DNA from: a virus
IMG/VR virus record: IMGVR_UViG_3300023178_003561
Coordinates: 1-64,000 of that record
DNA length: 64,000 nucleotides
Direction: 5' to 3' (one strand)
Positions 34,459 to 50,655 of this stretch are shown here, piece after piece (within the stretch, counting starts at the first letter, position 1; every line of letters begins with the position of its first letter). Under the pieces are notes generated by a model. That model did no database searches, was not told the DNA's origin, and saw nothing but the letters and a program-made list of their open reading frames with translations. Position numbers and translations under genes: made by a program.

Positions 34459-35144
34459 TTCTTCTTCCTGCCCGCGCAGTGTGCCTTCTGTGAGAAACCT
34501 TTTGGGTTGGAGCAGTTGATCGACTTCTTGTACTTGGCGCTCCAGGCCTCGTTGATGTCCACGCTCCCGTGCCTTGCCTCCTTGCTTGGATTGTTGGCCT
34601 TCAGCATCTCCGCCCACACCACCATGTTTGTGGCACAGTTTTTCACTTGTTCCAGTGTGGCGTCATCGTCAACGATCTCGTCAATGCCCTGTGCTTTCGA
34701 TTCTATGTTGCACTGTGGTGGGATGGTGAAACCGAAGTTGGCCGCGGCCGAATACAATACTCCGTGTATGTGTTGGAATCCATCTCCGCCTCCCGATATC
34801 AACGTTCCAAATACTTTGTTGTACATTGGCTGGTATCCGTTGTCCTTGGCCCAACTGTATATTGGATCCAGTCTCTCCAGCATGGCCTGTATGTGGCAAC
34901 TGTGCTGTCCCCACCATATCGGTGTTGCGAATATGACACCATCCGCTTTGAATATGTCCATGATGTGAGGTTTCAACTCATCATCAACGTCTGCCGTTGC
35001 ACCTTCATAGTTTAATTCTCTCATTGTGACGATCTCACAGTCATGACCCAATTTCTGGAACGCCATCTGTGCCATCTTGCACACAGTGAATGTGTTTGAT
35101 TCTTGATCAGGTTTTAGACTACCGTTGAATATCTTGAACCTCAC
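34455..35144 (-). CDS. flavodoxin-like NAD(P)H:quinone/FMN reductase with phage C-terminal module
   Basis: 229 residues starting at GTG. Flavodoxin fold of WrbA/FMN-reductase type: phosphate loop NGSLKPDQESNT at 6-17, FATPIWWGQHSCHIQAMLERLDP near 75-97 and GTLISGGGDGFQHIHGV near 117-133. The last 25 residues add a Cys-containing basic tail (CSNPKGFSQKAHC) recurrent in marine phage proteins. It sits between a CTS-like gene and superoxide dismutase, so it could be part of a packaged redox set. No CTS-like start of its own. Confidence 0.8.
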   Translation of the reverse strand: MRFKIFNGSLKPDQESNTFTVCKMAQMAFQKLGHDCEIVTMRELNYEGATADVDDELKPHIMDIFKADGVIFATPIWWGQHSCHIQAMLERLDPIYSWAKDNGYQPMYNKVFGTLISGGGDGFQHIHGVLYSAAANFGFTIPPQCNIESKAQGIDEIVDDDATLEQVKNCATNMVVWAEMLKANNPSKEARHGSVDINEAWSAKYKKSINCSNPKGFSQKAHCAGRKKK

Positions 35145-35698
35145 TTGGTGCTCCTCAATGTTATAACACCACAGGCCAATCTGTCACCTGCGTTTCCTGT
35201 CTTCAAACTTTCTTCATCTCCGCCCTTGCCCAGATCATCTGGATCAGCGTGTACCACAATGCCTCTGCCAACGACAGAACGATCGCCTATTAGATCAACC
35301 CTGTCTGCTCTTATACTGAATTCTGATTTGCCGTTCTCATCCGCTTCGATGTTGCCGAGGTCACCCACATGTCCCTCGTTGAGGTCACCGTGGTTTACTT
35401 CATCTGGGTTGTAGTGTCCGCCCATGCTTTTGCAACCATCACTCATGTCGCCGAACTCGTGTATGTGGAATCCGTGTGCGCCTGGTTCCAACCCTGTGAT
35501 CGTGCCTTTGATCAGTGTTGGCGTTCCAGGTGACTGCATCAATAATATGGTGCCCTTGACCTCGTCCGAATGCTGTAGTTCACACTGTGCTATCACAGTG
35601 TCCAAGCCTTCCGTGATGCTTTTGACCTTGTCGCAAGAACACTCCTTGGCTTTGGTCCTGGGACAACTGGTCTCTCTGATTAGGTCTGATGCTCGCAT
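35141..35698 (-). CDS. sodC: Cu/Zn superoxide dismutase with CTS-like N-terminus
   Basis: 185 residues. Starts MRASDLIRE, then a Cys-rich linker (CPRTKAKECSCDKVKS). The SodC domain covers about 32-185 with metal ligands HGFHIHEFGD (His78, His80), GGHYNP (His95), VNHGDL (His103), VVHADPDD (His150) and Cys89 paired with a late Cys. Converts superoxide to peroxide and oxygen. No secretion signal is visible; the N-terminus instead looks like a capsid-targeting peptide. A late promoter lies eight bases upstream. Confidence 0.88.
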   Translation of the reverse strand: MRASDLIRETSCPRTKAKECSCDKVKSITEGLDTVIAQCELQHSDEVKGTILLMQSPGTPTLIKGTITGLEPGAHGFHIHEFGDMSDGCKSMGGHYNPDEVNHGDLNEGHVGDLGNIEADENGKSEFSIRADRVDLIGDRSVVGRGIVVHADPDDLGKGGDEESLKTGNAGDRLACGVITLRSTK

Positions 35699-36067: not shown

Positions 36068-37240
36068 CTATTGATCCCGCTGTATTTTGGCATATCCTTC
36101 CAGTCCTTTCTTTACTTTGTCTAATGAATCTCTGTTGGCTTGGTATAGTATTCCATAACCACCTGCCGACTGCCACTTTTGTATATTGATTGGCCTGTCG
36201 TCGATCAAGATGTTTGGTGTGCCTGTCCCTTTGTCTGTTGCATAACTTTCTTTTCTGCCGGTAACTATTATCTCGTCTGGCTGTTCTATGTGATTTGCTA
36301 TCCACACCCTTTTGTGTTTGGCACTGTTGGCATGATCTCCACGCAGAGGTGATGTGTTAATGCTAAACTTGCCCCCGGTGAATTTCTTAACCATATCTAT
36401 CAATGTGTCAGCAGTTCCAAATTTTGGCAAAGTAGCAAAAAAATTAGTGCCTGTAATCCTGTCGATCACTTCCTTTTTAAGGTCCTTGGTCTTGTCATTG
36501 GTGAGTTGCTTCCAGTGTTCAACTCCATACATCTTTTCCACACCTCCAAAGAAGTCTGCCATGACTCCGTCCATGTCTAGGTATACAGTTGGTTTTGCGT
36601 CTTCCATGTTTTCATTATACAACTTTTTGTTGTTTTCGTCAATCTGTTTACCAAGCCTATCTTGTATTATATCATATAACTTTTTGCCACTGTTTCCGCC
36701 CATGATTACTTTGGAAAATTCATGTTCCTGTCCCTTGTTGGCCAGTTCTCTGGCTTTTGACGCCGAGGCACCAGAAGCACCTTCCTGATCCGGATCCCTC
36801 TCACCGGCACTTACAACATCTATGAAATCAAATTTGTAAAGGTCATTGCCCTGCTTATCAGGTTTGCCATTGTATTGGTTTAGGAGTTTTTGGAATTCCG
36901 CCACCCTGTCCGAGCCGGCCACCATCACTATCCTTGTCCTTCCCTCTGCCTGTATTTTTTGAAGGGCCTGGATAATTGTTTTTACAGTTGAGTCTCCCAC
37001 TGCTAGATCGGGATAAAACATTTTGATGTAGTCCGCCTTTTCCTTGAATGTGAGTGGATCGGTTCTGTTGTTTTGTTTTTGGGATAAGAAAAGATATGCC
37101 TTGCCGTTGACCTGTTTGGCCACGGACTCTAGTTTGCCTAATAGTTTTTGGTGTCCTATTGTGGGAGGATTGAATCGACCAAAGGCAAATACCGCTGTGG
37201 AACGATCATCCTCTCTAAGAAACAGTTCCCTGAGGTACAT
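36068..37240 (-). CDS. nucleotidyltransferase-HAD phosphatase fusion with CTS-like N-terminus
   Basis: 390 residues. N-terminus MYLRELFLRE (CTS-like). Domain 1 (about 15-200) is an HxGH-type nucleotidyltransferase: GRFNPPTIGH at 21-30, MVAGSDR near 106-112 and a SASKAREL signature near 158-166, as in NMN or FAD adenylyltransferases. Domain 2 (about 215-390) is a HAD phosphatase with YLDMDGVMAD at 220-229 (nucleophile Asp222) and a late IDDRP motif, like 5'(3')-deoxyribonucleotidases. It may combine adenylyl transfer to a nucleotide with dephosphorylation; substrates are not known. Confidence 0.8.
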   Translation of the reverse strand: MYLRELFLREDDRSTAVFAFGRFNPPTIGHQKLLGKLESVAKQVNGKAYLFLSQKQNNRTDPLTFKEKADYIKMFYPDLAVGDSTVKTIIQALQKIQAEGRTRIVMVAGSDRVAEFQKLLNQYNGKPDKQGNDLYKFDFIDVVSAGERDPDQEGASGASASKARELANKGQEHEFSKVIMGGNSGKKLYDIIQDRLGKQIDENNKKLYNENMEDAKPTVYLDMDGVMADFFGGVEKMYGVEHWKQLTNDKTKDLKKEVIDRITGTNFFATLPKFGTADTLIDMVKKFTGGKFSINTSPLRGDHANSAKHKRVWIANHIEQPDEIIVTGRKESYATDKGTGTPNILIDDRPINIQKWQSAGGYGILYQANRDSLDKVKKGLEGYAKIQRDQ

Positions 37241-38575: not shown

Positions 38576-41500
38576 CTACTTCCACTTTGGATCGTCTGGA
38601 TTTATTGGCACGAACATGTCTTTTTTCATGTCGTACACCAATCCGTGTTTGGTTGCACTGTTGTCGTTGTTGTGACCGAACATCAGTTTTTGCATGTCTG
38701 CGGTAAGCACTTCTTTGCCGTTCGCGTCCTTGGTGTAGCACTTGGGATTCTTCATCCATAAAAACTTACAACTGCCCCAGAACTTCTTGACATAATTCAT
38801 ACCCAACTCTACACCGTCATTGCCATTTACTCCTGCTATGTCCTGTCTATACTCAGCAGTGAAGTTGAATGTTGCGTCCGTATCGTGCGTTGGTGTGTGA
38901 TTGTAGAAGAAGCCGATGTTCTTCTCCTTGTGCTTCTGTGTAAGGTCGCTTTTTATGTTGGTGTAGTTGATCGTGCCGTCTAGATTTACACTCTCGGCTA
39001 CTTCCATGTCCATACTACCAGAGGTAATGTGGCTAGGAAGTGAGAACGACCAACCGAGAGTGTTATTCTCATCTTTGTGCATCTCGTAAGCCAATCTCAA
39101 TGACTCAGTCCTTACATCTGAGAATCCTTTTATCAGGCTGTTGTCAACGGTGCTGATGTCCGTGCTACCTCTAGAGTAGTCTATGCTCAACACGTTGTTG
39201 CCTATCTGATAGCTCGCACCTATCTGTCCGTAGTCGGTGTAGGTGTTATCACCCACTGCGAGGACGCCACTTGAGCTGTTACCCAACCAAGTCTCGTTCT
39301 CCTTCATCTGTCCCACGTTGCCTTTCAATGCGAACTTGTCTGTTATGAAAAATTTCTTACCGATGTTTGCGGAATAATCGCCATTGCCACTCTCGCCTGT
39401 GAACAGACCGAAGTTCATGTAGCCTAGGTCGAACTGGCCACCCTGTGCATAACTGCCGTACATCTGGTTGAATGGTAGGTATGCGTATCCGTTCATCATC
39501 TGGTCAATGTCTGATACTTTCCTCTTGTCCTGCACGACGAAACTTGATCCAAGGTCCATGTAGTAGTTCCTGTCGTAGTCATCCAGCACCATGATCTTTA
39601 AATTTTGTAGACTTGATGGCAATGCTGTGCCTGTGGCAAAATATGTGTTGTTCAGACTCACAACCGGATGGTCAACTCTGCCTGTAGTGACTATTCCAAC
39701 CGCACCCTGTGGTTTAGTTGCCTCGTCTAGATCCAAAAGACCCTGTCCGTGTATGTTGACGTCGTAACCTGACATGCTCTTGTCTGCCGTGTTCATCACG
39801 AGCGATACCAAGTTCTCGCCTTTCATGTATGGCCACATCTGATGTAGAATACCAAAACTGGCAGTCACGTGTGGAGCCGCCATCGACGTACCTGAGCTGG
39901 TCATGTAGTTGGTGTTCCCTAGTCCCACCGGTACCGCAGATTTAATGTTGTTGCCCGGTGCAAGAATATAGAAGTCAGAGATTCTGTGTGTGTCATTGCA
40001 AGTGTTGTTCACTGTGTTGATGTCTAGGCACACGTGTCCTGCTTTGTTTCCTGAAACGTTGGCTCCATCCCAGTTACCCACTATGACCATCTTGCCTCCT
40101 AACACAAGATTGCCGTTGCTGTCAACTTCGGTAGCCCATATGCCCGGATCACCTGCGTGGTTGTATCCGGCGTTACCAGCCGAGTTGACCAGTATGATGT
40201 CGTTGTCTGTGGCAACCTGCCAGTATCTGGCATCGCCCGCACCGTTGTAGAATATCTTGTCCGTTATCTCCTGTGCGTTGTAGGTACCGTCACTTAACTG
40301 TGTTACCGTTGATCCATTGCTGTCTGTGAACAGTTGCGGTGTGTTGAAACTCATGTTCACTGCTATGATGTTCTTCTCCTCACCACCATTCGCTGTGGGA
40401 GATTTCAATTTGGCCATGTCATGTAATGCGTTCTGTGCCTGGTTCTTTGATATACCACCCCTGCCGTAGTAGTCGACATTGGCACCAACCAATTTGGAAT
40501 TGTATGCAACACCATGTGTTCCTGTGCCGTCTTTCTTGCCTGCTATGATGCCGGCAACGTGTGTGCCGTGATATTGAGAATCTCCACCGTTGCTCACTGT
40601 GGAATCATATCTCGTGTAGTCCTTGTACCACTCATACTTGCCATCCAGTTCCGGATGGTCAGTGTCCTGCCAAGTGTCTATCACACCCAGCACCGCACCT
40701 TCACCAGTCCAACCCCTTGCGTATGCGTTCGCGGCGTTAATCATGGAATGTCCTGTGCTTTCCGTGTATTCTGTTGTCTTGTGGTCCGCAACCACCGAGC
40801 TCATGTTGGCTGTTGGCGTACCTAGATTGATGTCTGTGTCCGTGTATTGATTCGAAACCAGTTGCGAACTGATCTGTGTGCCAGCGTCACTTGTAGTAAC
40901 AACCACGTCGGCTGTGTTCTCGCTCTGTAGTATGTTCTCGGATCTCTCGGATTGGCTAACCTGTACAGTTGTCCAGTCACCTGTGACCACGGTCGCCGAA
41001 CCGTTGATGTCCTCGGTTGTTCCATCTTTGTATGTGACCCTGTTCACTGCAGTCGTAGTAGTCACTGTTCTCGTGTCTTTCTTGACTGTGTCTGTGTAGT
41101 GTCTTGTTCTGTAAATTTTAGTTGTAGTGGGTGTAGTGGTTGTTGTGTCAACATATCTTGTTACAATGACTGTTGATGTGTTGTTGCCGTGATCCGTTGT
41201 CGTCGTCACGTCTCTGTTGGCTGTGTTTGTTGTTGCAGACCCTTCCTCCGTCTCTGTGGTAGTGCTGTCGGCGTCAACGTATGTTGTCACTGTGTATGGA
41301 TCGGTCTCTTCTGTGGCAGTTGTGACCGTGTCATCTAATGCAATAGTCGTCACAACAGGATTGTCACCTGCCCTTGTCTCTGTTTCTGTCGTCACGGTTG
41401 GATCTAGTTCTATTGTTGAACTTGCGATCTCCGTGCAAGTCTGTGCACCATCTGTGTATGTACCATTGAGTAATGTCGTCCTTTCAAATGTACATCTCGT

Positions 41501-42214
41501 TGTCACTGTGGTTCTTAAATTTGTAGTTGTGGTAGTTTTTGTTCTCTGCTCGTCACCACCGCCTTGGTATATTGTTGCCCAGTCGGTGTAACTCACACTC
41601 GAACTGCCCGTTGCGTCTGTTGATGTTTCTGTGTCGTTAGTGATTGTCTGTGTGTTCTTTACTAATTTCTCCGCCGCATAAGAACTTGCAGTAGTGTTCT
41701 TCTTTTCTGTGATAATTTCTTCTGCTTTTTCTTCTTTGGCTATTGTGTTGTAGTCAGCCAGTGTTATGGTTCTACCCTCGGCAACCTTTTGCACCACGGG
41801 TTTGACGCTGTCCTTTAGATAAAGGAATGCCGCATATGCTCTCTTGTATGAATCCGAATTGTAAATTGAATATTGTTCGGTTTCAGGCTGTTGTTTGATC
41901 AAATCTTCCGTCTGTGCCCACAGTGTTTCCGCTTCTCCCAACATGGATAACAGAGTGTTCGCTTTGGCCTGGTCCTCTGATGTTGGACCTGTCAGTATCG
42001 CTTGTATCTTGCTGATGTCACCACTTGATATTTCACTGTTGAATGAACTCAACAAGGCGGAATAATCACTGATAAGGGATTCTGATCCGTTTAGATTTGT
42101 CAAGTCGTTTTGCACGAAGTTGGAAACTGTGCCAACTGCACCACCTCCACCTCCTCCGCCACAAGCGGTAAGCGCCGTCAATGAACCTGCTAGTAGTAGG
42201 TTCCTGATCTTCAT
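38576..42214 (-). CDS. lipoprotein subtilisin-like serine protease (S8), autotransporter-like
   Basis: 1212 residues. Signal peptide with lipobox LTAC (15-18), then a poly-Gly run, so lipidated at Cys18. A Thr-rich low-complexity region spans about 185-445. The S8 domain spans about 490-830 with the complete triad Asp513 (GVIDTW), His549 (HGTHVAG) and Ser777 (SGTSMAAPH), plus Asn681 as oxyanion-hole candidate. The last about 370 residues are strand-rich (GYMNFGLFTGESGNGDYS, NVLSIDYSRGS), resembling an outer-membrane or surface domain; the extreme C-terminus lacks a classic terminal Phe. The layout resembles NalP/SphB1-type lipoprotein autotransporters and S8 proteins of marine alphaproteobacteria. 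A sigma70 promoter lies upstream. Very unusual for a phage. Confidence 0.85.
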   Translation of the reverse strand: MKIRNLLLAGSLTALTACGGGGGGGAVGTVSNFVQNDLTNLNGSESLISDYSALLSSFNSEISSGDISKIQAILTGPTSEDQAKANTLLSMLGEAETLWAQTEDLIKQQPETEQYSIYNSDSYKRAYAAFLYLKDSVKPVVQKVAEGRTITLADYNTIAKEEKAEEIITEKKNTTASSYAAEKLVKNTQTITNDTETSTDATGSSSVSYTDWATIYQGGGDEQRTKTTTTTNLRTTVTTRCTFERTTLLNGTYTDGAQTCTEIASSTIELDPTVTTETETRAGDNPVVTTIALDDTVTTATEETDPYTVTTYVDADSTTTETEEGSATTNTANRDVTTTTDHGNNTSTVIVTRYVDTTTTTPTTTKIYRTRHYTDTVKKDTRTVTTTTAVNRVTYKDGTTEDINGSATVVTGDWTTVQVSQSERSENILQSENTADVVVTTSDAGTQISSQLVSNQYTDTDINLGTPTANMSSVVADHKTTEYTESTGHSMINAANAYARGWTGEGAVLGVIDTWQDTDHPELDGKYEWYKDYTRYDSTVSNGGDSQYHGTHVAGIIAGKKDGTGTHGVAYNSKLVGANVDYYGRGGISKNQAQNALHDMAKLKSPTANGGEEKNIIAVNMSFNTPQLFTDSNGSTVTQLSDGTYNAQEITDKIFYNGAGDARYWQVATDNDIILVNSAGNAGYNHAGDPGIWATEVDSNGNLVLGGKMVIVGNWDGANVSGNKAGHVCLDINTVNNTCNDTHRISDFYILAPGNNIKSAVPVGLGNTNYMTSSGTSMAAPHVTASFGILHQMWPYMKGENLVSLVMNTADKSMSGYDVNIHGQGLLDLDEATKPQGAVGIVTTGRVDHPVVSLNNTYFATGTALPSSLQNLKIMVLDDYDRNYYMDLGSSFVVQDKRKVSDIDQMMNGYAYLPFNQMYGSYAQGGQFDLGYMNFGLFTGESGNGDYSANIGKKFFITDKFALKGNVGQMKENETWLGNSSSGVLAVGDNTYTDYGQIGASYQIGNNVLSIDYSRGSTDISTVDNSLIKGFSDVRTESLRLAYEMHKDENNTLGWSFSLPSHITSGSMDMEVAESVNLDGTINYTNIKSDLTQKHKEKNIGFFYNHTPTHDTDATFNFTAEYRQDIAGVNGNDGVELGMNYVKKFWGSCKFLWMKNPKCYTKDANGKEVLTADMQKLMFGHNNDNSATKHGLVYDMKKDMFVPINPDDPKWK

Positions 42215-42393
42215 ATGATGCTACCCATTATGAATGCACCCAACAAGAAGACTAATAGCAATCTTGTGTATAAATTTGATTTCTTGAGAACCTTGTATCC
42301 GTTCTCTCTGAGGCAAATTACATGGGCGTCAATTGACTCCGCTGTAATATTCACATCAACTGTGTTGATCTGTTCTAGGTCTTTGTCGTTCAT
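42211..42393 (-). CDS. small tail-anchored membrane protein (60 aa)
   Basis: 60 residues: polar N-terminus with LEQINTVDVNITAESIDAH and one C-terminal hydrophobic helix (LLLVFLLGAFIMGSII), i.e. a tail-anchored protein. Its TGA overlaps the protease ATG as ATGA, and it follows a sigma70 promoter. It may be a small partner of the protease. Function unknown. Confidence 0.65.
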   Translation of the reverse strand: MNDKDLEQINTVDVNITAESIDAHVICLRENGYKVLKKSNLYTRLLLVFLLGAFIMGSII

Positions 42394-42399
42394 GTGTAA

Positions 42400-42427
42400 A
42401 TTATAACACAGAACTGGTAATTGTCAA
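42400..42427 (-). promoter_or_regulatory. sigma70-type promoter for the 60-aa ORF and S8 protease
   Basis: Minus-strand TTGACA (42422-42427), 16-base spacer ending CTGTGT, TATAAT (42400-42405). The same CTGTGT-TATAAT join occurs at 54624. Located seven bases before the ATG at 42393. Confidence 0.72.
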
Positions 42428-42458: not shown

Positions 42459-43067
42459 TTAATGATTGTATAGTATTTTTCTGATGGATCCAGTACTCAT
42501 TCCGGATACTTTGGCTCTTACCCATACAAAATTGCCAGAGAAGTTGGCAGTGAATGCCAGGGTTGAACCGTCGATGTTGGTGCTGTCAATTGTGGTTCCT
42601 GAGATGTCAAACCAGTCATCCTCTGTGGGATCTGTGGCAAGGCTACCTTGCATCTTTATACTGATGTTGGCGTCATCGTTGATAGTTGAACTCACATGAT
42701 AGGCAACAGTATGCACACCATCTGGCTGTGAGTAGTAGCCGTCGCCTTTTTGCTTGTCACTGACGAAACCTACGTGGTCCAAAGTTATCGACTGGCCAGC
42801 GTCCTCTGTGGTAACTTCTTCCTCGACAATGATGAAGTCATTGCTTGAACTTTTGCTTTTGACTGTGAAGGTGCTATTGTTGGCACTGTTTGACGCACCG
42901 CTTACAGTGATAAGATCAAACTTATTGTATGGACCAAAACTAATTGTGCTGGTATCAGAACTGCTTATCTTGTATTCCGTTCCTGTTTTTGTGAAACTTA
43001 TTACCGTGCCTGTCTTGTCCGCTTCGTGTTCTTTTTCACCTAGTAATGTAATACTTTTTTGTGCCAT
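42459..43067 (-). CDS. virion structural protein, beta-rich
   Basis: 202 residues, strand- and Ser/Thr-rich (TISFGPYNKFDLITVSGASN, SSTINDDANISIKMQGSL), with GNFVWVRAKVSG near the C-terminus, as in phage decoration or tail-accessory proteins. No enzymatic motif. A late promoter variant lies upstream and no signal peptide is seen. Confidence 0.62.
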   Translation of the reverse strand: MAQKSITLLGEKEHEADKTGTVISFTKTGTEYKISSSDTSTISFGPYNKFDLITVSGASNSANNSTFTVKSKSSSNDFIIVEEEVTTEDAGQSITLDHVGFVSDKQKGDGYYSQPDGVHTVAYHVSSTINDDANISIKMQGSLATDPTEDDWFDISGTTIDSTNIDGSTLAFTANFSGNFVWVRAKVSGMSTGSIRKILYNH

Positions 43068-43373: not shown

Positions 43374-43986
43374 TTTCCACCTTTCTAAATTTTATAATTT
43401 TGTCAATTGCTTGTTGCGCCATCATGTAAATTGGTGTGATGTAGCGTTCTTGTGTCACATAAAAATATCCGCCAAAGCAGTATGGATTTTTGTTCTCCAG
43501 AAAGTCAAGCAGGCCGTACCCAGGCACGTAGCAGTTGTCTACGTTGCGGTCAATGAAACTCCTAAGGTTTTCTCTCTGTGTGTCTGTTATTACCCTGTGG
43601 GCGTCTTTCTTGATGTGGACCTGGTACTGGTACTTGCCATGTGGCAACCTATGGCATCCAACGACATTCTCCTTGAGATCACCGTGCCTCGGGTCAACGG
43701 TGTCTACGCTCACAAAGTTATCAATGAATTTGTCTTTGACTACCTCCGCCAGTTGTTTGTTCGTATAAAAAATGCTTTTCTTTTCTTGTATCCTGAACTT
43801 CATATTGTTCCTGTTGTTGAGAATAAAATCCGCCAGTGACCAAATCTTTTCAAGCCTGTTGTTGTTGTCCTTGATTTTCTGTAAGTTTTCGTCTGTTGTT
43901 GGCCACAGCATTGCCGTCTCTGGTAGATTCAAGACAGTCTTGTAACGGTACTTGCCGTAGTAAAGCCTATTGTGGTGCTTTCTCAT
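43345..43986 (-). CDS. hypothetical protein
   Basis: 213 residues from the ATG at 43986. It contains helical and strand segments with many His and Tyr (MRKHHNRLYYGKYRYK, GCHRLPHGKYQYQVHIKK). No known domain. It overlaps clpA by 20 bases. An alternative in-frame TTG at 44007 is less likely. It may be a tail or capsid protein. Confidence 0.58.
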   Translation of the reverse strand: MRKHHNRLYYGKYRYKTVLNLPETAMLWPTTDENLQKIKDNNNRLEKIWSLADFILNNRNNMKFRIQEKKSIFYTNKQLAEVVKDKFIDNFVSVDTVDPRHGDLKENVVGCHRLPHGKYQYQVHIKKDAHRVITDTQRENLRSFIDRNVDNCYVPGYGLLDFLENKNPYCFGGYFYVTQERYITPIYMMAQQAIDKIIKFRKVENGSNKKTTR

Positions 43987-46303
43987 CTGCAGGTTTGAAA
44001 GTGTCAATCTTTTTTGGTTCTTTTTTGGCCTTGAACATCACAGTCAGTTTAGGCACGACATCATTGGATAATCCAACTTCCACCATGCCGCCCTCTGTGA
44101 GCTCTCCGAACAATATCATTTTTGATAATGGTTTCTTGATCTCTTCATCAATCACACGTTGCAATGGCCTCGCACCCAATTTTGCATCAAATCCTTTTTT
44201 AATCAAGAAATCAACGGCGTCATCTGTAGCATTTACCTCAACGTCTTTTTCATTTGTCATGGTGTTAAGCTCAAGCAAGAATTTCTTCACTATAGATTTC
44301 ATGGTGTCTTTGCCTAGTTTGTCAAACTTGATAACCGCGTCTAGCCTGTTCCTGAATTCTGGTGGGAAGAACTTTTTCAATGCAACATCATCCTCGCCTG
44401 TCCTTTCGGTCGGACCGAAGCCTATGTTGTTTCTCTCGTTTGCTTCTGCGCCCAAGTTAGATGTCATTATGAGAGTGATGTTCCTGCAGTCTGCTTTCTT
44501 ACCATTGCTACCAGTGACCGTACCATAGTCCATCACTTGCAACAACATGTTTGACACGTCTCTGTGTGCTTTCTCTATCTCGTCAAACAGCACAACCGCG
44601 TGTGGGTTTTTCTCCACTTCGTTGATAAACATACCACCACCCATTTGTGAGTCTTCGAATCCAACATACCCTGGAGGAGACCCTATCAATTTAGCAATGG
44701 AGTGTTTCTCCTGGTACTCACTCATGTCAAAACGCAAAAGCTCAACCCCTAATGTCTTTGCCAACTGCCTTGCCGTCTCTGTCTTACCACAGCCTGTGGG
44801 TCCTAGGAATAGGAAAGATCCAACTGGCTTTGTGAGACTTTTTAGTCCGGCCCTGGCAACGAGAATTTTGTCTGTGATTGTGCTTATGGCCTTGTCCTGG
44901 CCAAACACCTGCAGTTTCATTTTTTCTTCTAGTGTCTTTAGGTTAGTGGCTTGTTTCTGCGAAAGTTGTTCGATAGATATGCCGGTCATCACACTTATCT
45001 CGTGTATGATCTCGTCATGGTCGATCTTGCCGTCTTTGATACCTTTAAGTCTTAGTCTAGCACAGGCAACATCGATTACATCAATTGCTTTGTCAGGTAA
45101 TTTTTTGTCTGTGATGTATTTGCTTGAGTAGTCCACAGCGTCCTCGCAGGCCTCGTCTGTGATTGTGCAATTATGGAATTTCTCGTAATACTGCTTGACT
45201 CCTTTGAGTATCTTGACCGCAGTCTCGTTCGTAGGCTCCCCGACTTGCAATCTCTGGAATCTACGCATCAATGCTCTGTCTTTTTCGAAGTACTTCCTGT
45301 ATTCTTCCCACGTGGTTGAAGCAATTACCTTGATCGAACCTTTGAGAAGTGCTGGCTTGATCATATTGGCCATGTCCATGCTGTTGCCCTGTCCCGTGGC
45401 CCCAGCACCCACTATCATGTGTGCCTCATCGATGAACAGTATGCTTTTGCCTTTTTGGTCAAGAGCATTTACAATCAGTTTGAGCCTCTCTTCAAAATCA
45501 CCTCTGAACTTGCTTCCTGCAATCAGGCTGTTGACATCCAGGCTCCATACAATATGATCCTTGATGTATTCTGGAACGTCTGCTTTGTTTTTTGCTATAC
45601 GTCTTGCGAGTCCTTCAACAACAGCGGTTTTACCCACTCCTGGATCACCAACTATCAACACGTTGTTCTTGTTCCTTCTGGCCAATATTTGCTTTAGTTG
45701 TTCAGTTTCTTCTTCTCTTCCTATGACAGGATCTATTTTTTTATCAAAGTATTTTTGATTTAAGTTCTCACAGTAACTTTTTAGAATTCTATCTGCCTGA
45801 TTGGGTCTAAGTTTTTGTTCAGATTGTGGTTGGCTACCACCCATTGCCGCCATGCCCTCGTCTAGTATTGTTTCAGTGGACACAAGGTCCATTAGATCCT
45901 GTTTGTTTACCTGGTGTTTCTTGAGGAAGAATGCCGCATAACTCTTTTTTTCTGAGAAGATTGATATCAGTATGTCGATCGAGTTGACATCCTGTCTGCC
46001 CTGGAACAGTGCCTGCGTGAATGCTCTGTTCATCAATCTCTCGAGACTAGCGGTCTTACGTGGAGTCATTGGTTCTTTGCCTTTTGCAACAATGTCGTTG
46101 CACTTGGTATCGAGGTAATCTTCTACATCCTTAATAAGTCCACCAACGTTAATTTTGAAATCGTGTAGAGTTGTTCCGATGTCTTTGTCTTTTATCAACG
46201 CCAGTAAAACGTGTTCTATTGTGACGTACTCGTGTCTTCTTTTCTCCGCTTCCTTAACTGCGTTTTCGAATATGTTTTCTAGTCCTTCGTTTGCTTCTAA
46301 CAT
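43967..46303 (-). CDS. clpA: ClpA-type AAA+ unfoldase
   Basis: 778 residues from the ATG at 46303 (GGAG five bases upstream; an in-frame GTG lies six bases earlier). N domain about 1-145, first AAA module with Walker A GDPGVGKT near 219-226, and second with GPTGCGKT near 501-508. The ClpP-docking loop NNIGFGPTE has the IGF tripeptide at about 627-629. Walker B LFIDEAHM and LFDEIEKA are intact. It should unfold proteins for a ClpP ring; no clpP is seen here, so it probably works with the host ClpP. Full-length Hsp100 genes are unusual in phages. Confidence 0.92.
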   Translation of the reverse strand: MLEANEGLENIFENAVKEAEKRRHEYVTIEHVLLALIKDKDIGTTLHDFKINVGGLIKDVEDYLDTKCNDIVAKGKEPMTPRKTASLERLMNRAFTQALFQGRQDVNSIDILISIFSEKKSYAAFFLKKHQVNKQDLMDLVSTETILDEGMAAMGGSQPQSEQKLRPNQADRILKSYCENLNQKYFDKKIDPVIGREEETEQLKQILARRNKNNVLIVGDPGVGKTAVVEGLARRIAKNKADVPEYIKDHIVWSLDVNSLIAGSKFRGDFEERLKLIVNALDQKGKSILFIDEAHMIVGAGATGQGNSMDMANMIKPALLKGSIKVIASTTWEEYRKYFEKDRALMRRFQRLQVGEPTNETAVKILKGVKQYYEKFHNCTITDEACEDAVDYSSKYITDKKLPDKAIDVIDVACARLRLKGIKDGKIDHDEIIHEISVMTGISIEQLSQKQATNLKTLEEKMKLQVFGQDKAISTITDKILVARAGLKSLTKPVGSFLFLGPTGCGKTETARQLAKTLGVELLRFDMSEYQEKHSIAKLIGSPPGYVGFEDSQMGGGMFINEVEKNPHAVVLFDEIEKAHRDVSNMLLQVMDYGTVTGSNGKKADCRNITLIMTSNLGAEANERNNIGFGPTERTGEDDVALKKFFPPEFRNRLDAVIKFDKLGKDTMKSIVKKFLLELNTMTNEKDVEVNATDDAVDFLIKKGFDAKLGARPLQRVIDEEIKKPLSKMILFGELTEGGMVEVGLSNDVVPKLTVMFKAKKEPKKIDTFKPADEKAPQ

Positions 46304-46502
46304 TTCCACTCCAATCTATTTTTCCTTGTTGAATCGCGTCCCAGGTCTCTATGTCTCTGTCGGTCCAAAAGCACTCCTGCTGTATTCCTGCCACCAGCCA
46401 TTCCACGTCCTTTCTTCCAATCGGTTGTTTGTAGGTGCCTTTTAGTATTTTCCATGCCTTAGTTTCCTTTGGTCTTTTTAATTTTTGTTGGCCATTTGCC
46501 AT
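46254..46502 (-). CDS. small basic protein
   Basis: 82 residues, rich in Lys, Arg and Trp (KRPKETKAWKILKGTYKQP, RDIETWDAIQQGKIDW) with a very basic C-terminus (RSKRRTRKHIRKRS). It overlaps clpA by about 50 bases and def by 25. No domain recognised. Might be an adaptor for the unfoldase or a DNA-binding protein; only the location supports the first. Confidence 0.58.
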   Translation of the reverse strand: MANGQQKLKRPKETKAWKILKGTYKQPIGRKDVEWLVAGIQQECFWTDRDIETWDAIQQGKIDWSGNVRSKRRTRKHIRKRS

Positions 46503-46972
46503 CGCAGTTTGCTGACTCTCTGATTAAACGTAATACCCTCAAGGTGATCGTGTTCATGCTGGAAGCACTTGGATTCCATTCCGTCGAGCCTTGCGTATCT
46601 TGTTTTTCCTTTTGTTGTTTCATATTGTACTTCTATAACTTTTGGTCTTTCTACTTTAACAAAGATGTCCTTAAAACTCAGACACCCTTCCACGTCTATA
46701 ACTTTTTCTTCTCCCTGCATTATTATCTGTGGATTCCAAATTATAACAGGTTTTTGAAATGTGTCAAATGAGTCATGACCTATCGCGAAGAATCTTTTGG
46801 TAATGCCCATCTGGTTCGCGGCCAGTCCCATTCCTTTCTCATCCAGCATCAGTTTAACTGCGTCTTGTTCAAACCGTTCTATATCATCATAACCATCTAT
46901 AGTGTCAGTTTTCTTCCATTCCGTGCTTTTCTGTAGCAGTGCCTCGTGTGGGTATTGGTATACTTTTATCAT
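46478..46972 (-). CDS. def: peptide deformylase
   Basis: 164 residues. All three motifs are visible: GMGLAANQ (47-54, Asn where Pro is usual), EGCLSF (95-100) with ligand Cys97, and QHEHDHLEG (138-146) with the HExxH metal site His139/Glu140/His143. It removes the formyl group from new proteins. Phage deformylases are known in marine phages and are thought to support synthesis of short-lived proteins. It is coupled to dnaJ upstream. Confidence 0.92.
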   Translation of the reverse strand: MIKVYQYPHEALLQKSTEWKKTDTIDGYDDIERFEQDAVKLMLDEKGMGLAANQMGITKRFFAIGHDSFDTFQKPVIIWNPQIIMQGEEKVIDVEGCLSFKDIFVKVERPKVIEVQYETTKGKTRYARLDGMESKCFQHEHDHLEGITFNQRVSKLRWQMANKN

Positions 46973-47829
46973 AGGTCCTTAATCTTCTTCAAATCCTGTG
47001 CTGAAAGTTGTGGTATCAACACGTGTACTTTCACGTATAGGTTTCCACGAATATTTAATGTCTTGTGTACAGGCATTCCCTGACCCTTCACCATCAGCAG
47101 TGTGTTGGGTTGTGTGCCTGCGGGCACTTTCACTTTTATAACCTTATCCTCCAGTGTTCTAAGTTGTAACTCGTGTCCACGCACTGCCTGGAAACAGTCG
47201 ATGGTTTTGTCTGTGTAGAGATCGTTGCCCTTACGTGTGTATCCATCACAGTCTAACACATTCATTTGCACCAGTAGATCACCACGTGGCATGTTCCTAA
47301 TAGCGTCATCACCCATGCCTGAGAACTTGAACGTGACTCCGTTTTGCACACCCGCTGGTATCTTTACTGTGGCGAACTCGTCCCTGCCCGACGGCAGTTT
47401 GTAGTTAATAGTCTTCTCATGGTTCATCATAGCCTCTTTCAGGCTCACTGCCATACGTACCTGCACGTTCCTGTTGCCACGTCGTGTCTGTCTGAATGAT
47501 CTGGGTTGTCCTCCTGAAGTGAAGTTGAACTGCACTCCGTCGCCCATGTTCTGGAATCCTGAAAAGAAGTCACCGAATATGTCTTCGTTGAAGAACGGAT
47601 GCTCTCCACCACCAGTCGTGCCTGGTCTACCAAACTTACGCATGGTGTCGTAGTCGTGCCTCTTCTGTGAGCTCTTCAGCGTGTCGTGTGCCTCGTTTAT
47701 CTCCTGGAACTTGTCCTTGTCTCCGCCCCGGTCCGGGTGGTGTTGCTTGGCGAGGTTCTTGAATGCTTTCGTGATCTCAGCACTGGTGGCCTTTTCGTCC
47801 ACACCCAGGATGTCATAATAATTTTTCAT
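46969..47829 (-). CDS. dnaJ: DnaJ-type co-chaperone (CbpA-like, no zinc finger)
   Basis: 286 residues. J domain at 1-70 with the HPD tripeptide in KQHHPDRGG near residues 29-37, a Gly/Phe-rich linker (FGDFFSGFQNMGDG), then two substrate-binding C-terminal domains (about 125-280). The CxxCxGxG zinc-finger repeats of classical DnaJ are absent, as in CbpA. It stimulates host DnaK. It begins the run dnaJ, def, clpA and is preceded by a sigma70 promoter, so chaperone genes are expressed as one message. Confidence 0.9.
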   Translation of the reverse strand: MKNYYDILGVDEKATSAEITKAFKNLAKQHHPDRGGDKDKFQEINEAHDTLKSSQKRHDYDTMRKFGRPGTTGGGEHPFFNEDIFGDFFSGFQNMGDGVQFNFTSGGQPRSFRQTRRGNRNVQVRMAVSLKEAMMNHEKTINYKLPSGRDEFATVKIPAGVQNGVTFKFSGMGDDAIRNMPRGDLLVQMNVLDCDGYTRKGNDLYTDKTIDCFQAVRGHELQLRTLEDKVIKVKVPAGTQPNTLLMVKGQGMPVHKTLNIRGNLYVKVHVLIPQLSAQDLKKIKDL

Positions 47830-48938: not shown

Positions 48939-49369
48939 TCGATCGGGCCTTTGACGATCTTGGCCTCAACTAGTTTCTTCCTGTTCTTCATGTGCTGTTT
49001 CTGTACATCCGCCTTTGATCCACCGAAGTAGGCCACGGCGTGTCCCTCCTTACACATGATCTGGCTCACTTGTTTTCCTTCAATTAAGAAGTCACCAAGC
49101 ACACGTCCAAACTTGCCCTTCATGTCCTCACCTTTCTTGCTGATTGTGGTCTGCAATACCGGTTTAGGTCCCAGTAACGATTTCAATCTCGCCTTTGCCG
49201 CAAGTCCAAATTTCTTTTCAATCTTGTCCCTTGTCCTTGATTCCGGCGTGTCTATGCCCATTATCCTCACACGCTCGTTCATCTGCCATATGCCGAAGCC
49301 CAGGTCGATGTCCACATCCACGGTGTCACCGTCTATGACCTTCTTTAATTTACATCTATACGTCCACAT
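48935..49369 (-). CDS. staphylococcal-nuclease-like (thermonuclease) protein
   Basis: 144 residues of the SNase fold: KVIDGDTVDVDIDLGFG at the N-terminus (calcium-site Asp), VRIMGIDTPESR (catalytic Arg region) and KFGRVLGDFLIEG near 85-97. It cleaves DNA or RNA when calcium is bound. No signal peptide is visible, so it acts in the cytoplasm or is released at lysis. Coupled to the lipoprotein gene upstream. Host DNA degradation or injection-stage nuclease are both possible. Confidence 0.85.
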   Translation of the reverse strand: MWTYRCKLKKVIDGDTVDVDIDLGFGIWQMNERVRIMGIDTPESRTRDKIEKKFGLAAKARLKSLLGPKPVLQTTISKKGEDMKGKFGRVLGDFLIEGKQVSQIMCKEGHAVAYFGGSKADVQKQHMKNRKKLVEAKIVKGPIE

Positions 49370-49713
49370 TATTCCGTCTCCTCGTAGTATTTCTTGTATT
49401 CCTCAAGTAGGTTGTTTGTTTCCTGTAATTTCTGTCTTATCTGTGCGAAGTTCTTGGCCAACAGTTCGAACTCTTTGTCCGTCAGTCCGAACAGCACGGG
49501 ATCTATGCCCTCCGCTTCCAATTTAGCGAACACCTCGTCAGCGTTCTCTGACGTGATGATGATCCATTTGATCTTTTCAAGATCTAGTGCTTCTGGATTA
49601 GGAAGGTTGAGTTTGGCCCTTGGCTCTTCGAGGGAGAATATCTTAACACGCTTCTCGCCCACGCTACAACCGGCCAGTAAAATCATCATTGCTATCAGTA
49701 ATATCTTATTCAT
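49369..49713 (-). CDS. lipoprotein, probable outer-membrane spanin
   Basis: 114 residues from the ATG at 49713 (another ATG at 49722). A signal peptide with lipobox LLAGC predicts lipidation, followed by an acidic mature part with a C-terminal helix (KNFAQIRQKLQETNNLLEEYKKYY). It directly follows an inner-membrane coiled-coil gene and precedes the nuclease. The pair looks like Rz/Rz1-type spanins; the coiled-coil helix supports that. Longer than typical Rz1 proteins, so some doubt remains. Confidence 0.68.
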   Translation of the reverse strand: MNKILLIAMMILLAGCSVGEKRVKIFSLEEPRAKLNLPNPEALDLEKIKWIIITSENADEVFAKLEAEGIDPVLFGLTDKEFELLAKNFAQIRQKLQETNNLLEEYKKYYEETE

Positions 49714-50179
49714 AGTGTACATAATTTGGATTTGCTAGGCTCGGACATTCCGGATTGATCTCCGACTTCTTGGTTGCTTTCAATTCTTCCTCTGTGTGCT
49801 CGGCACCTGAAGCCAGTTCCACACATCTCGCGGCGTTGTCCGCACCCTTGTTGATGATCCTCTCAATGGCCCCAGTCCTGTCTATGGCCAGTTTGCCAAT
49901 GTCTCTCTTGCCCTTGTTGAATCTCTTGTCCAACTCATCAAGATCCTTCTTGAAAGTCGAGATCAACACATTAAGTTTCTTGTTGCTTTCCAGTATGGCC
50001 TCGAAATCTTTCTTTTGTTGTTCTAAAACTTTAGTCTGTTCCGCTATGCCCTTTTCTAACTCGATCTGGTTTGCTTTCAGCGTGGCGTTGTCAGCCTTGA
50101 GTTTGTAGATGTAGGCGGCACCTCCGGCCAGTCCTACGACCATCACGAGTGTGATCAGCATTTTGATCTGTGAAAACAT
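49706..50179 (-). CDS. inner-membrane spanin-like protein
   Basis: 157 residues. One N-terminal transmembrane helix (MLITLVMVVGLAGGAAYIY), then a long coiled coil (about residues 28-95; LKANQIELEKGIAEQTKVLE). Near the end, C-rich AARCVELASG and PECPSLANPNYVHYE. This is the architecture of an Rz-type i-spanin, with an adjacent overlapping lipoprotein gene. A late promoter lies upstream. Confidence 0.7.
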   Translation of the reverse strand: MFSQIKMLITLVMVVGLAGGAAYIYKLKADNATLKANQIELEKGIAEQTKVLEQQKKDFEAILESNKKLNVLISTFKKDLDELDKRFNKGKRDIGKLAIDRTGAIERIINKGADNAARCVELASGAEHTEEELKATKKSEINPECPSLANPNYVHYE

Positions 50180-50186
50180 TATGTAC

Positions 50187-50194
50187 GTATTTAT
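50187..50194 (-). promoter_or_regulatory. late promoter motif ATAAATAC
   Basis: Minus-strand late element, seven bases before the ATG at 50179, overlapping the end of the endolysin gene. Confidence 0.62.
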
Positions 50195-50655
50195 TGAATA
50201 AGGCCAGGTTTATAAACGGTCTTGCCGTTTTCTTTCATGGCAGTAAGAACAGATTTACGATTGCCTTCTGACTTGTATGAAACATGAACCCAACCGGAAT
50301 CAGGTATGCCTGGTGTGTAGAACTCCAGTATCAGTTGATCGAAGTCTAGGTTGTCTTCTATGTATTTGGCCACATCGTAGTTGGGTGTGCCCGGACATTC
50401 TATGTCCACCGCTTCGCCTTTACAGTGCTGTGATTTACTTGAGCCGCCCACGGCCTCGTTCAATTTTGGCCCCCTGTATCCTGAATTGATCACTGTGACT
50501 CCAAATTTGTCTCTTACACGTTGCACCACGTTTCTGAATAATTGAGTTGCGTTTGCAAGGTGTTCTTCACCTGGAGTGTTGTCAATGCCCTGTCTCAGAG
50601 CAGTCTGACTCTTTGTGAATTCCTGTAACGTGAAGTTTTTACTTAATCTTACCAT
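50191..50655 (-). CDS. M15-family peptidase endolysin
   Basis: 154 residues. A Peptidase_M15_3 pattern is visible: SGYRGPKLNEAVGGSSKSQHCKGEAVDIEC near 58-87 supplies the zinc-binding His (QHCKG) and Asp (AVDIEC), and WVHVSYK near 122-128 supplies the final His. The first about 55 residues are a helical cap. Expected to cut peptidoglycan peptide bridges for host lysis. Position before the spanin-like pair supports this. Confidence 0.85.
   Translation of the reverse strand: MVRLSKNFTLQEFTKSQTALRQGIDNTPGEEHLANATQLFRNVVQRVRDKFGVTVINSGYRGPKLNEAVGGSSKSQHCKGEAVDIECPGTPNYDVAKYIEDNLDFDQLILEFYTPGIPDSGWVHVSYKSEGNRKSVLTAMKENGKTVYKPGLIQ

Follow-up and report, generated by a model that had tools for sequence, protein, structure and literature searches.

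We analysed a 64,000 base stretch of DNA (the window) out of the 65,921 base IMG/VR virus record IMGVR_UViG_3300023178_003561, whose genes lie almost throughout on the minus strand. Our subject is a gene at 38576-42214 that encodes a subtilase (peptidase family S8) joined to a predicted outer-membrane beta-barrel, together with a small membrane protein gene just upstream. A first-pass annotation, made from the sequence alone, had described the former as a phage-encoded lipoprotein subtilase with an autotransporter-like layout; this is supported, and the phage is T4-like. The features of the locus are:

38576-42214 (including the stop codon), minus strand: subtilase-barrel protein, 1212 aa, reading frame open over its full length
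42161-42214, minus strand: signal peptide with lipobox LTAC and predicted lipidated Cys18, from sequence
41615-42160, minus strand: N-terminal domain, residues 19-200, 54-66% identity between the clade members compared
40805-41614, minus strand: Thr-rich linker by composition, residues 201-470, 30% Thr
39710-40777, minus strand: S8 subtilase domain, residues 480-835 (PF00082 at residues 504-824, E 8e-30)
40676-40678, 40568-40570, 40172-40174 and 39884-39886, minus strand: active-site codons of D513, H549, N681 (oxyanion) and S777, respectively
38780-39451, minus strand: predicted outer-membrane-type beta-barrel, residues ~922-1145, last strand GVELGMNYVKKF (from AlphaFold2, Foldseek, the C-terminal Phe of relatives, and hhalign)
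38579-38779, minus strand: tail that follows the barrel at the C-terminus (residues 1146-1212, 67 aa), with two invariant Cys and the motif HGLxYDLxxDxFVPI
42211-42393, minus strand: 60 aa protein with a single transmembrane segment at its C-terminus; the stop codon overlaps the subtilase start (ATGA)
42400-42427, minus strand: sigma70-type promoter, TTGACA-16-TATAAT, matching the consensus at 12/12 positions

The protein opens with the signal peptide MKIRNLLLAGSLTALTAC, followed by GGGGGGG. The lipobox (L15-T-A-C18) and the Thr-rich region that the first-pass annotation had described were both borne out. The +2 residue after Cys18 is Gly, and there is no Asp inner-membrane retention signal. 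Relatives were compared as 57 full-length members (the number left after reduction at 85% identity, the window protein and one bacterial sequence included) and in an alignment of 55 members, which underlies the invariance counts, the full hhalign comparison of the barrel and the AlphaFold2 input. A lipobox is found in 39 of the 57; the others have ordinary signal peptides, except L067, the start of which is likely truncated. Some other clades carry EEARLAE-type repeats in place of the Thr-rich linker.

The catalytic triad had been placed at D513, H549 and S777. These residue numbers are exact, and all three, as well as the oxyanion N681, are invariant across 55/55 aligned members. What defines peptidase family S8 is present: a PF00082 domain, an Asp/His/Ser triad and an oxyanion Asn. 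Two cysteines of the domain (Cys729 and Cys739) are also invariant, which suits an oxidising compartment. The top fold match of the S8 domain and barrel together is the passenger of the Ssp autotransporter (8e7f). The ratio of nonsynonymous to synonymous substitution rates (dN/dS) is ~0.07-0.15 in every domain when the protein is compared with its 79% relative L018, dS being near saturation, and 0.04-0.12 where measurable in the close pair L019/L028. As judged from these ratios, the gene is under purifying selection as a protease.

We rejected two other accounts of the locus. A degraded gene is ruled out by the purifying selection and the intact triad, and an assembly artefact by full-length orthologues on many contigs; those at L017-L028 show 54-76% identity.

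The strand-rich C-terminal domain of the first-pass annotation runs to F1145, and structure prediction, the check proposed for it, returned a barrel. The AlphaFold2 model (55 rows) has a predicted local distance difference test score (pLDDT) of 84.9, a predicted template modelling score (pTM) of 0.75 and ~12-13 long strands. Foldseek against the PDB matched outer-membrane barrels, with the Vibrio OmpT porin first (E 6e-4, probability 1.0) and the NalP translocator 1uyn (probability 0.96), EspP (0.93-0.96 for 1uyn and EspP) and AaaA also among the matches. Because porins outrank NalP and EspP and the TM-scores are low, these matches support the fold class without fixing the exact type of barrel. 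The C-terminal residue points the same way. Outside the clade of the window protein, 44 full-length non-redundant members lack the tail, and 40 of them have a C-terminal Phe. Single members end in Trp, Tyr and Phe-Lys, and in the remaining one (L037) the C-terminus looks disrupted. Among 673 neighbouring ORFs (open reading frames), 2.7% end in Phe; the P for enrichment, 1.5e-58, is too small since the members are related, although the effect is plain. The window clade has F or L at position 1145, and then the tail. The Bam complex recognises a motif at the C-terminus, and the classic signal for assembly in the outer membrane is a Phe in the last position (Struyve 1991, cited in PMC3297439). 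Sequence and model alike identify the C-terminal domain as a barrel of the outer-membrane class.

Sequence searches with the barrel alone against Pfam, PHROGs and PDB gave nothing convincing, and hhalign of the barrel to PF03797 and to EprS-type barrels was negative. A profile built from the barrel of one phage clade matched seven chromosomal proteins (L153-L159) with E 3e-10 to 6e-5 and a best score of ~40 bits. In 7/7 of these, subtilase sequence lies upstream of the barrel (five were scanned and match PF00082, two were recognised by inspection), and Pfam scans of the chromosomal homologues gave no PF03797 match either. When compared with the chromosomal S8 barrels by hhalign, all 55 phage barrels scored 99.5% (E 3e-23), and the window clade, taken together with the two tail-less relatives closest to it, 99.2% (E 2e-19). 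Phage and chromosomal barrels have in common a SQPLRVESG-like motif (LPSHITSG in the window). This homology and the missing PF03797 match place the translocator in an S8-partnered barrel lineage outside PF03797. The chromosomal proteins share the order of S8 domain and then homologous barrel, and differ by their chromosomal location and sequence divergence. Their C-terminal barrels, found on Pseudomonadota chromosomes and unrecognised by Pfam, make up an unnamed translocator-like domain family.

The first-pass annotation had likened the protein to NalP and SphB1. The likeness holds for the layout; it fails for the barrel, which by sequence is not PF03797 and belongs to the separate lineage just described. 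Like the subtilisin-like autotransporters (group 15: NalP, SphB1, Ssp, EprS), the window protein has a signal peptide, an S8 passenger and a C-terminal outer-membrane barrel, and a lipidated signal peptide, predicted here from LTAC18, is known in NalP and SphB1. NCBIfam EprS matches 55/55 members, with the window protein below its curated cut-off. Unlike group 15, the window protein is phage-encoded, carries ~450 residues ahead of the S8 domain and has a barrel that PF03797 does not recognise; its clade also adds the 67 aa post-barrel tail. Of the traits of classical type Va secretion, the order of signal peptide, passenger and C-terminal translocator in one chain is present, a PF03797 match is absent throughout the phage family, and the strict C-terminal signal, though kept by most of the family, is missing from the window's clade. 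On sequence and modelling grounds, the protein would work like a subtilisin-like autotransporter without being assigned to PF03797.

The tail past the terminal Phe of the barrel was overlooked by the first-pass annotation. It is some 50-75 residues long across the clade, and L040 and L041, the closest relatives without it, terminate at KF or RF exactly where it starts. A search with the tail returned 24 loci, 23 of them on contigs already known for this clade's subtilase; the remaining one (contig 3300021964_000896) matches the barrel too. Among subtilases, the tail was found in the window's clade alone. It should lie in the periplasm after insertion by the beta-barrel assembly machinery (BAM). 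Most tail-clade loci (L022 is an exception) have the gene for the 60 aa protein ahead of the subtilase, as do L037 and L041, and a search with this protein found 13 contigs, including L148 and L149.

The sigma70 promoter reported by the first-pass annotation was confirmed, at a site that the clade conserves. It stands, however, before the 60 aa gene (42393-42211), which had gone unmentioned. It lies 6 nucleotides before the ATG of that gene, and a near-consensus sigma70 site occupies the same position in 14 relatives, the weakest being those of L037 and L041. This spacing predicts a leaderless messenger RNA, which would be read by the host polymerase and hence expressed early. Elsewhere in the window and including this one, seven minus-strand ORF starts (54617, 53576, 47829, 42393, 36607, 20276 and 11946) lie 4-8 nucleotides behind near-consensus sigma70 promoters, which suggests that leaderless early transcripts are used regularly; the start at 36607 is that of the nucleotidase half, inside a 390 aa cytidylyltransferase-nucleotidase gene.

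We propose, with a probability of roughly 60%, that the gene causes a Gram-negative host, once infected, to produce a protease anchored at its surface, most likely for receptor shaving. The early-type promoter would have the host RNA polymerase transcribe a two-gene unit of the 60 aa membrane protein and the subtilase. The subtilase would be exported by Sec, lipidated and inserted by BAM, so that the S8 passenger is displayed in a type V-like manner, held by both lipid and barrel. It could then cleave host surface proteins, the natural targets for a lytic phage being outer-membrane proteins and adhesins. The benefit of shaving receptors would be superinfection exclusion and fewer progeny lost by adsorbing to the debris of lysed hosts. 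Judged from sequence and structural models, a surface location is very probable, and proteolytic activity, judged from the intact active site, equally so. Display on the infected cell is well supported, whereas the target we infer, and receptor shaving as the benefit is an argument by analogy to which we give slightly under even odds. The first-pass annotation had already proposed that cutting receptors might block superinfection, which is plausible.

The analogy is with known systems. NalP and SphB1 are thought to be held at the surface by lipidation during the processing of surface proteins (PMC9289746). The outer-membrane lipoprotein Llp of phage T5 blocks the receptor and stops secondary infection, and exclusion proteins, which are made early in infection, also keep phages from adsorbing to lysed fragments (PMC9586334). 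T5 Llp and Cor are likewise early, phage-made outer-membrane lipoproteins (PMC9586334), but they are small binding proteins, neither protease nor barrel; the subtilase would exclude by cutting where T5 Llp does so by binding. Both kinds of protein, subtilase autotransporters and the exclusion lipoproteins of phages, are already known. A phage family of such surface proteases appears to be undescribed in the searchable literature, where we found no account of a subtilase autotransporter encoded by a phage, most subscription papers being outside the coverage of that search. Small exclusion lipoproteins are known tools with which phages alter the surface of their host. If our proposal is correct, proteolysis joins the means by which they control re-infection and loss to debris, and the family gives viruses a protein-display device. 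Its barrel is recognised by neither Pfam nor PHROGs, so such genes are currently read as plain peptidases.

Several points weigh against a displayed, receptor-shaving protease. No convincing PF03797 match was found in any of the 55 members (best E 0.9). Some relatives have no lipobox, so lipid tethering is not general in the family. The window protein does not end at its beta-signal but continues for 67 residues. Finally, the sequence names no substrate, and the case for receptor shaving is made from analogy and from the timing expected. We tentatively suggest, as a possibility well short of even, a virus-adapted, almost phage-only type V-like lineage with a non-PF03797 barrel and an S8 passenger that displays a protease on the infected cell, in which the Cys-bearing tail of the window clade and the co-translated 60 aa inner-membrane protein couple the surface protease to the inner envelope. 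An autotransporter of this build would depart from the rule that the chain stops at the beta-signal.

The main rival to receptor shaving is feeding on outside protein, where a displayed or released protease digests extracellular protein and so supplies amino acids for a long infection. The gene is widespread in uncultured phages and in other clades sits among auxiliary and nucleotide genes (QueD, QueE, GTP cyclohydrolase), as a nutritional auxiliary gene might. We nevertheless consider this role unlikely, as the window clade retains lipid anchor and barrel, favouring action on the cell's own surface, and no peptide transporter was seen to accompany the gene among the annotated neighbours. More doubtful still is a protease anchored in the outer membrane with its passenger in the periplasm, serving envelope remodelling or protein quality control, with the barrel a mere anchor. 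Peptide deformylase, ClpA-like and DnaJ-like genes do lie nearby in the window clade, in the same order as in phage Phosso, and the 60 aa membrane protein and Cys-bearing tail could link the protease to the inner side; however, signal, S8 domain and C-terminal barrel form the architecture of surface-displaying autotransporters, and the chromosomal homologues share the S8-then-barrel order.

The first-pass annotation had also offered release of progeny as a function. An envelope protease, in a phage that also carries a lysis cassette, could help by cutting the envelope at the end of infection, but we regard this as improbable given a promoter of the host sigma70 type and a separate endolysin and two-part spanin:

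50191-50655, minus strand: endolysin
49706-50179, minus strand: Rz-like inner spanin
49369-49722, minus strand: lipoprotein outer spanin with a LAGC lipobox

These genes indicate a Gram-negative host and lysis provided by genes other than the subtilase. As a whole, 49369-50655 (minus strand) is a complete Gram-negative lysis cassette. A structural subtilase of the virion is highly improbable: the adjacent gene at 42459-43067 weakly matches a virion structural family, but the lipobox signal peptide, the outer-membrane barrel and another clade's location near the non-structural GTP cyclohydrolase, QueD and QueE all argue against it.

Relatives are encoded by at least 113 IMG/VR contigs. Searching viral contigs with a single sequence gave 15 contigs and with the alignment 113, of which 80 were kept; barrel scans of viral contigs with two closer clade sets returned new contigs besides many that the S8 search had already yielded. 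Among 50,697 deposited phage records, tblastn with the window protein and one relative found no full-length relative, giving partial S8-region matches only, mainly in Bacillus phages. The best viral fold match to the barrel is A0A6J5TBB6 (TMq 0.59, E 5e-13), a peptidase S8/S53 domain protein of an uncultured Caudovirales phage in UniProt/BFVD. It differs in being 689 aa long and annotated merely as a peptidase, and by its modelled fold it is probably a deposited, undescribed family member. UniProt/BFVD also holds other uncultured-phage proteins annotated with autotransporter domains, and A0A6J5L9S5 ('Repeat domain') in BFVD hints at another passenger.

A scan of genome contigs with the single window sequence gave no relatives. 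A peptide scan of bacterial genomes returned two contigs of Hylemonella metagenome-assembled genomes and three distant S8 proteins, and in a profile search of 399 Pseudomonadota genomes the Hylemonella copy alone reached E <= 1e-60; diverged cellular members could escape both searches. From these searches, the full family is almost only viral. The Hylemonella chromosomal subtilase-barrel gene is intact in two genomes (L096 7416-9941; L097 2013-4541), the number carrying it among 26 of its genus. It is a family member across S8 domain and barrel (558 bits, C-terminal F), differing in its surroundings: by gene names read from sequence, branched-chain amino acid (Liv-type) transporter genes flank it on one side and a DedA-like gene on the other. 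In the tree it is nested within viral sequences with strong support, so the gene probably moved from phage to bacterium. Gene transfer from Alphaproteobacteria, for which the first-pass annotation had proposed a search of relatives, was discarded because these searches showed no cellular donor. At L045 4233-13177 and similar loci, which belong to another clade, genes of the deazaguanine pathway (GTP cyclohydrolase, QueD and QueE) are found close to the subtilase. The relative L185 is on contig IMGVR_UViG_2651870089_000024, the IMG number of which has a form unlike the metagenome ones; it may come from an isolate or single-cell genome and could in that way reveal a host.

The window encodes a T4-type family B DNA polymerase, a clamp loader, baseplate-type proteins and a tail assembly chaperone besides the lysis genes, and is thus a myovirus fragment. 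A superoxide-dismutase-like protein (phrog_1975, E 5e-17) with no obvious signal peptide is encoded at 35141-35698 (minus strand). At 43967-47829 (minus strand) lies a protein-handling cluster of a ClpA-like ATPase, a peptide deformylase and a DnaJ-like protein, the last (46969-47829) read from the N-terminal sequence of its ORF. Among deposited phages, two jumbo phages have the closest polymerases: Sinorhizobium phage Phosso (50.5%) and Agrobacterium phage Atu_ph07 (45.8%). In the 18 kb of Phosso compared around its DnaJ-like, deformylase and Clp genes there is no subtilase; the order of these three genes is common to the window and Phosso.

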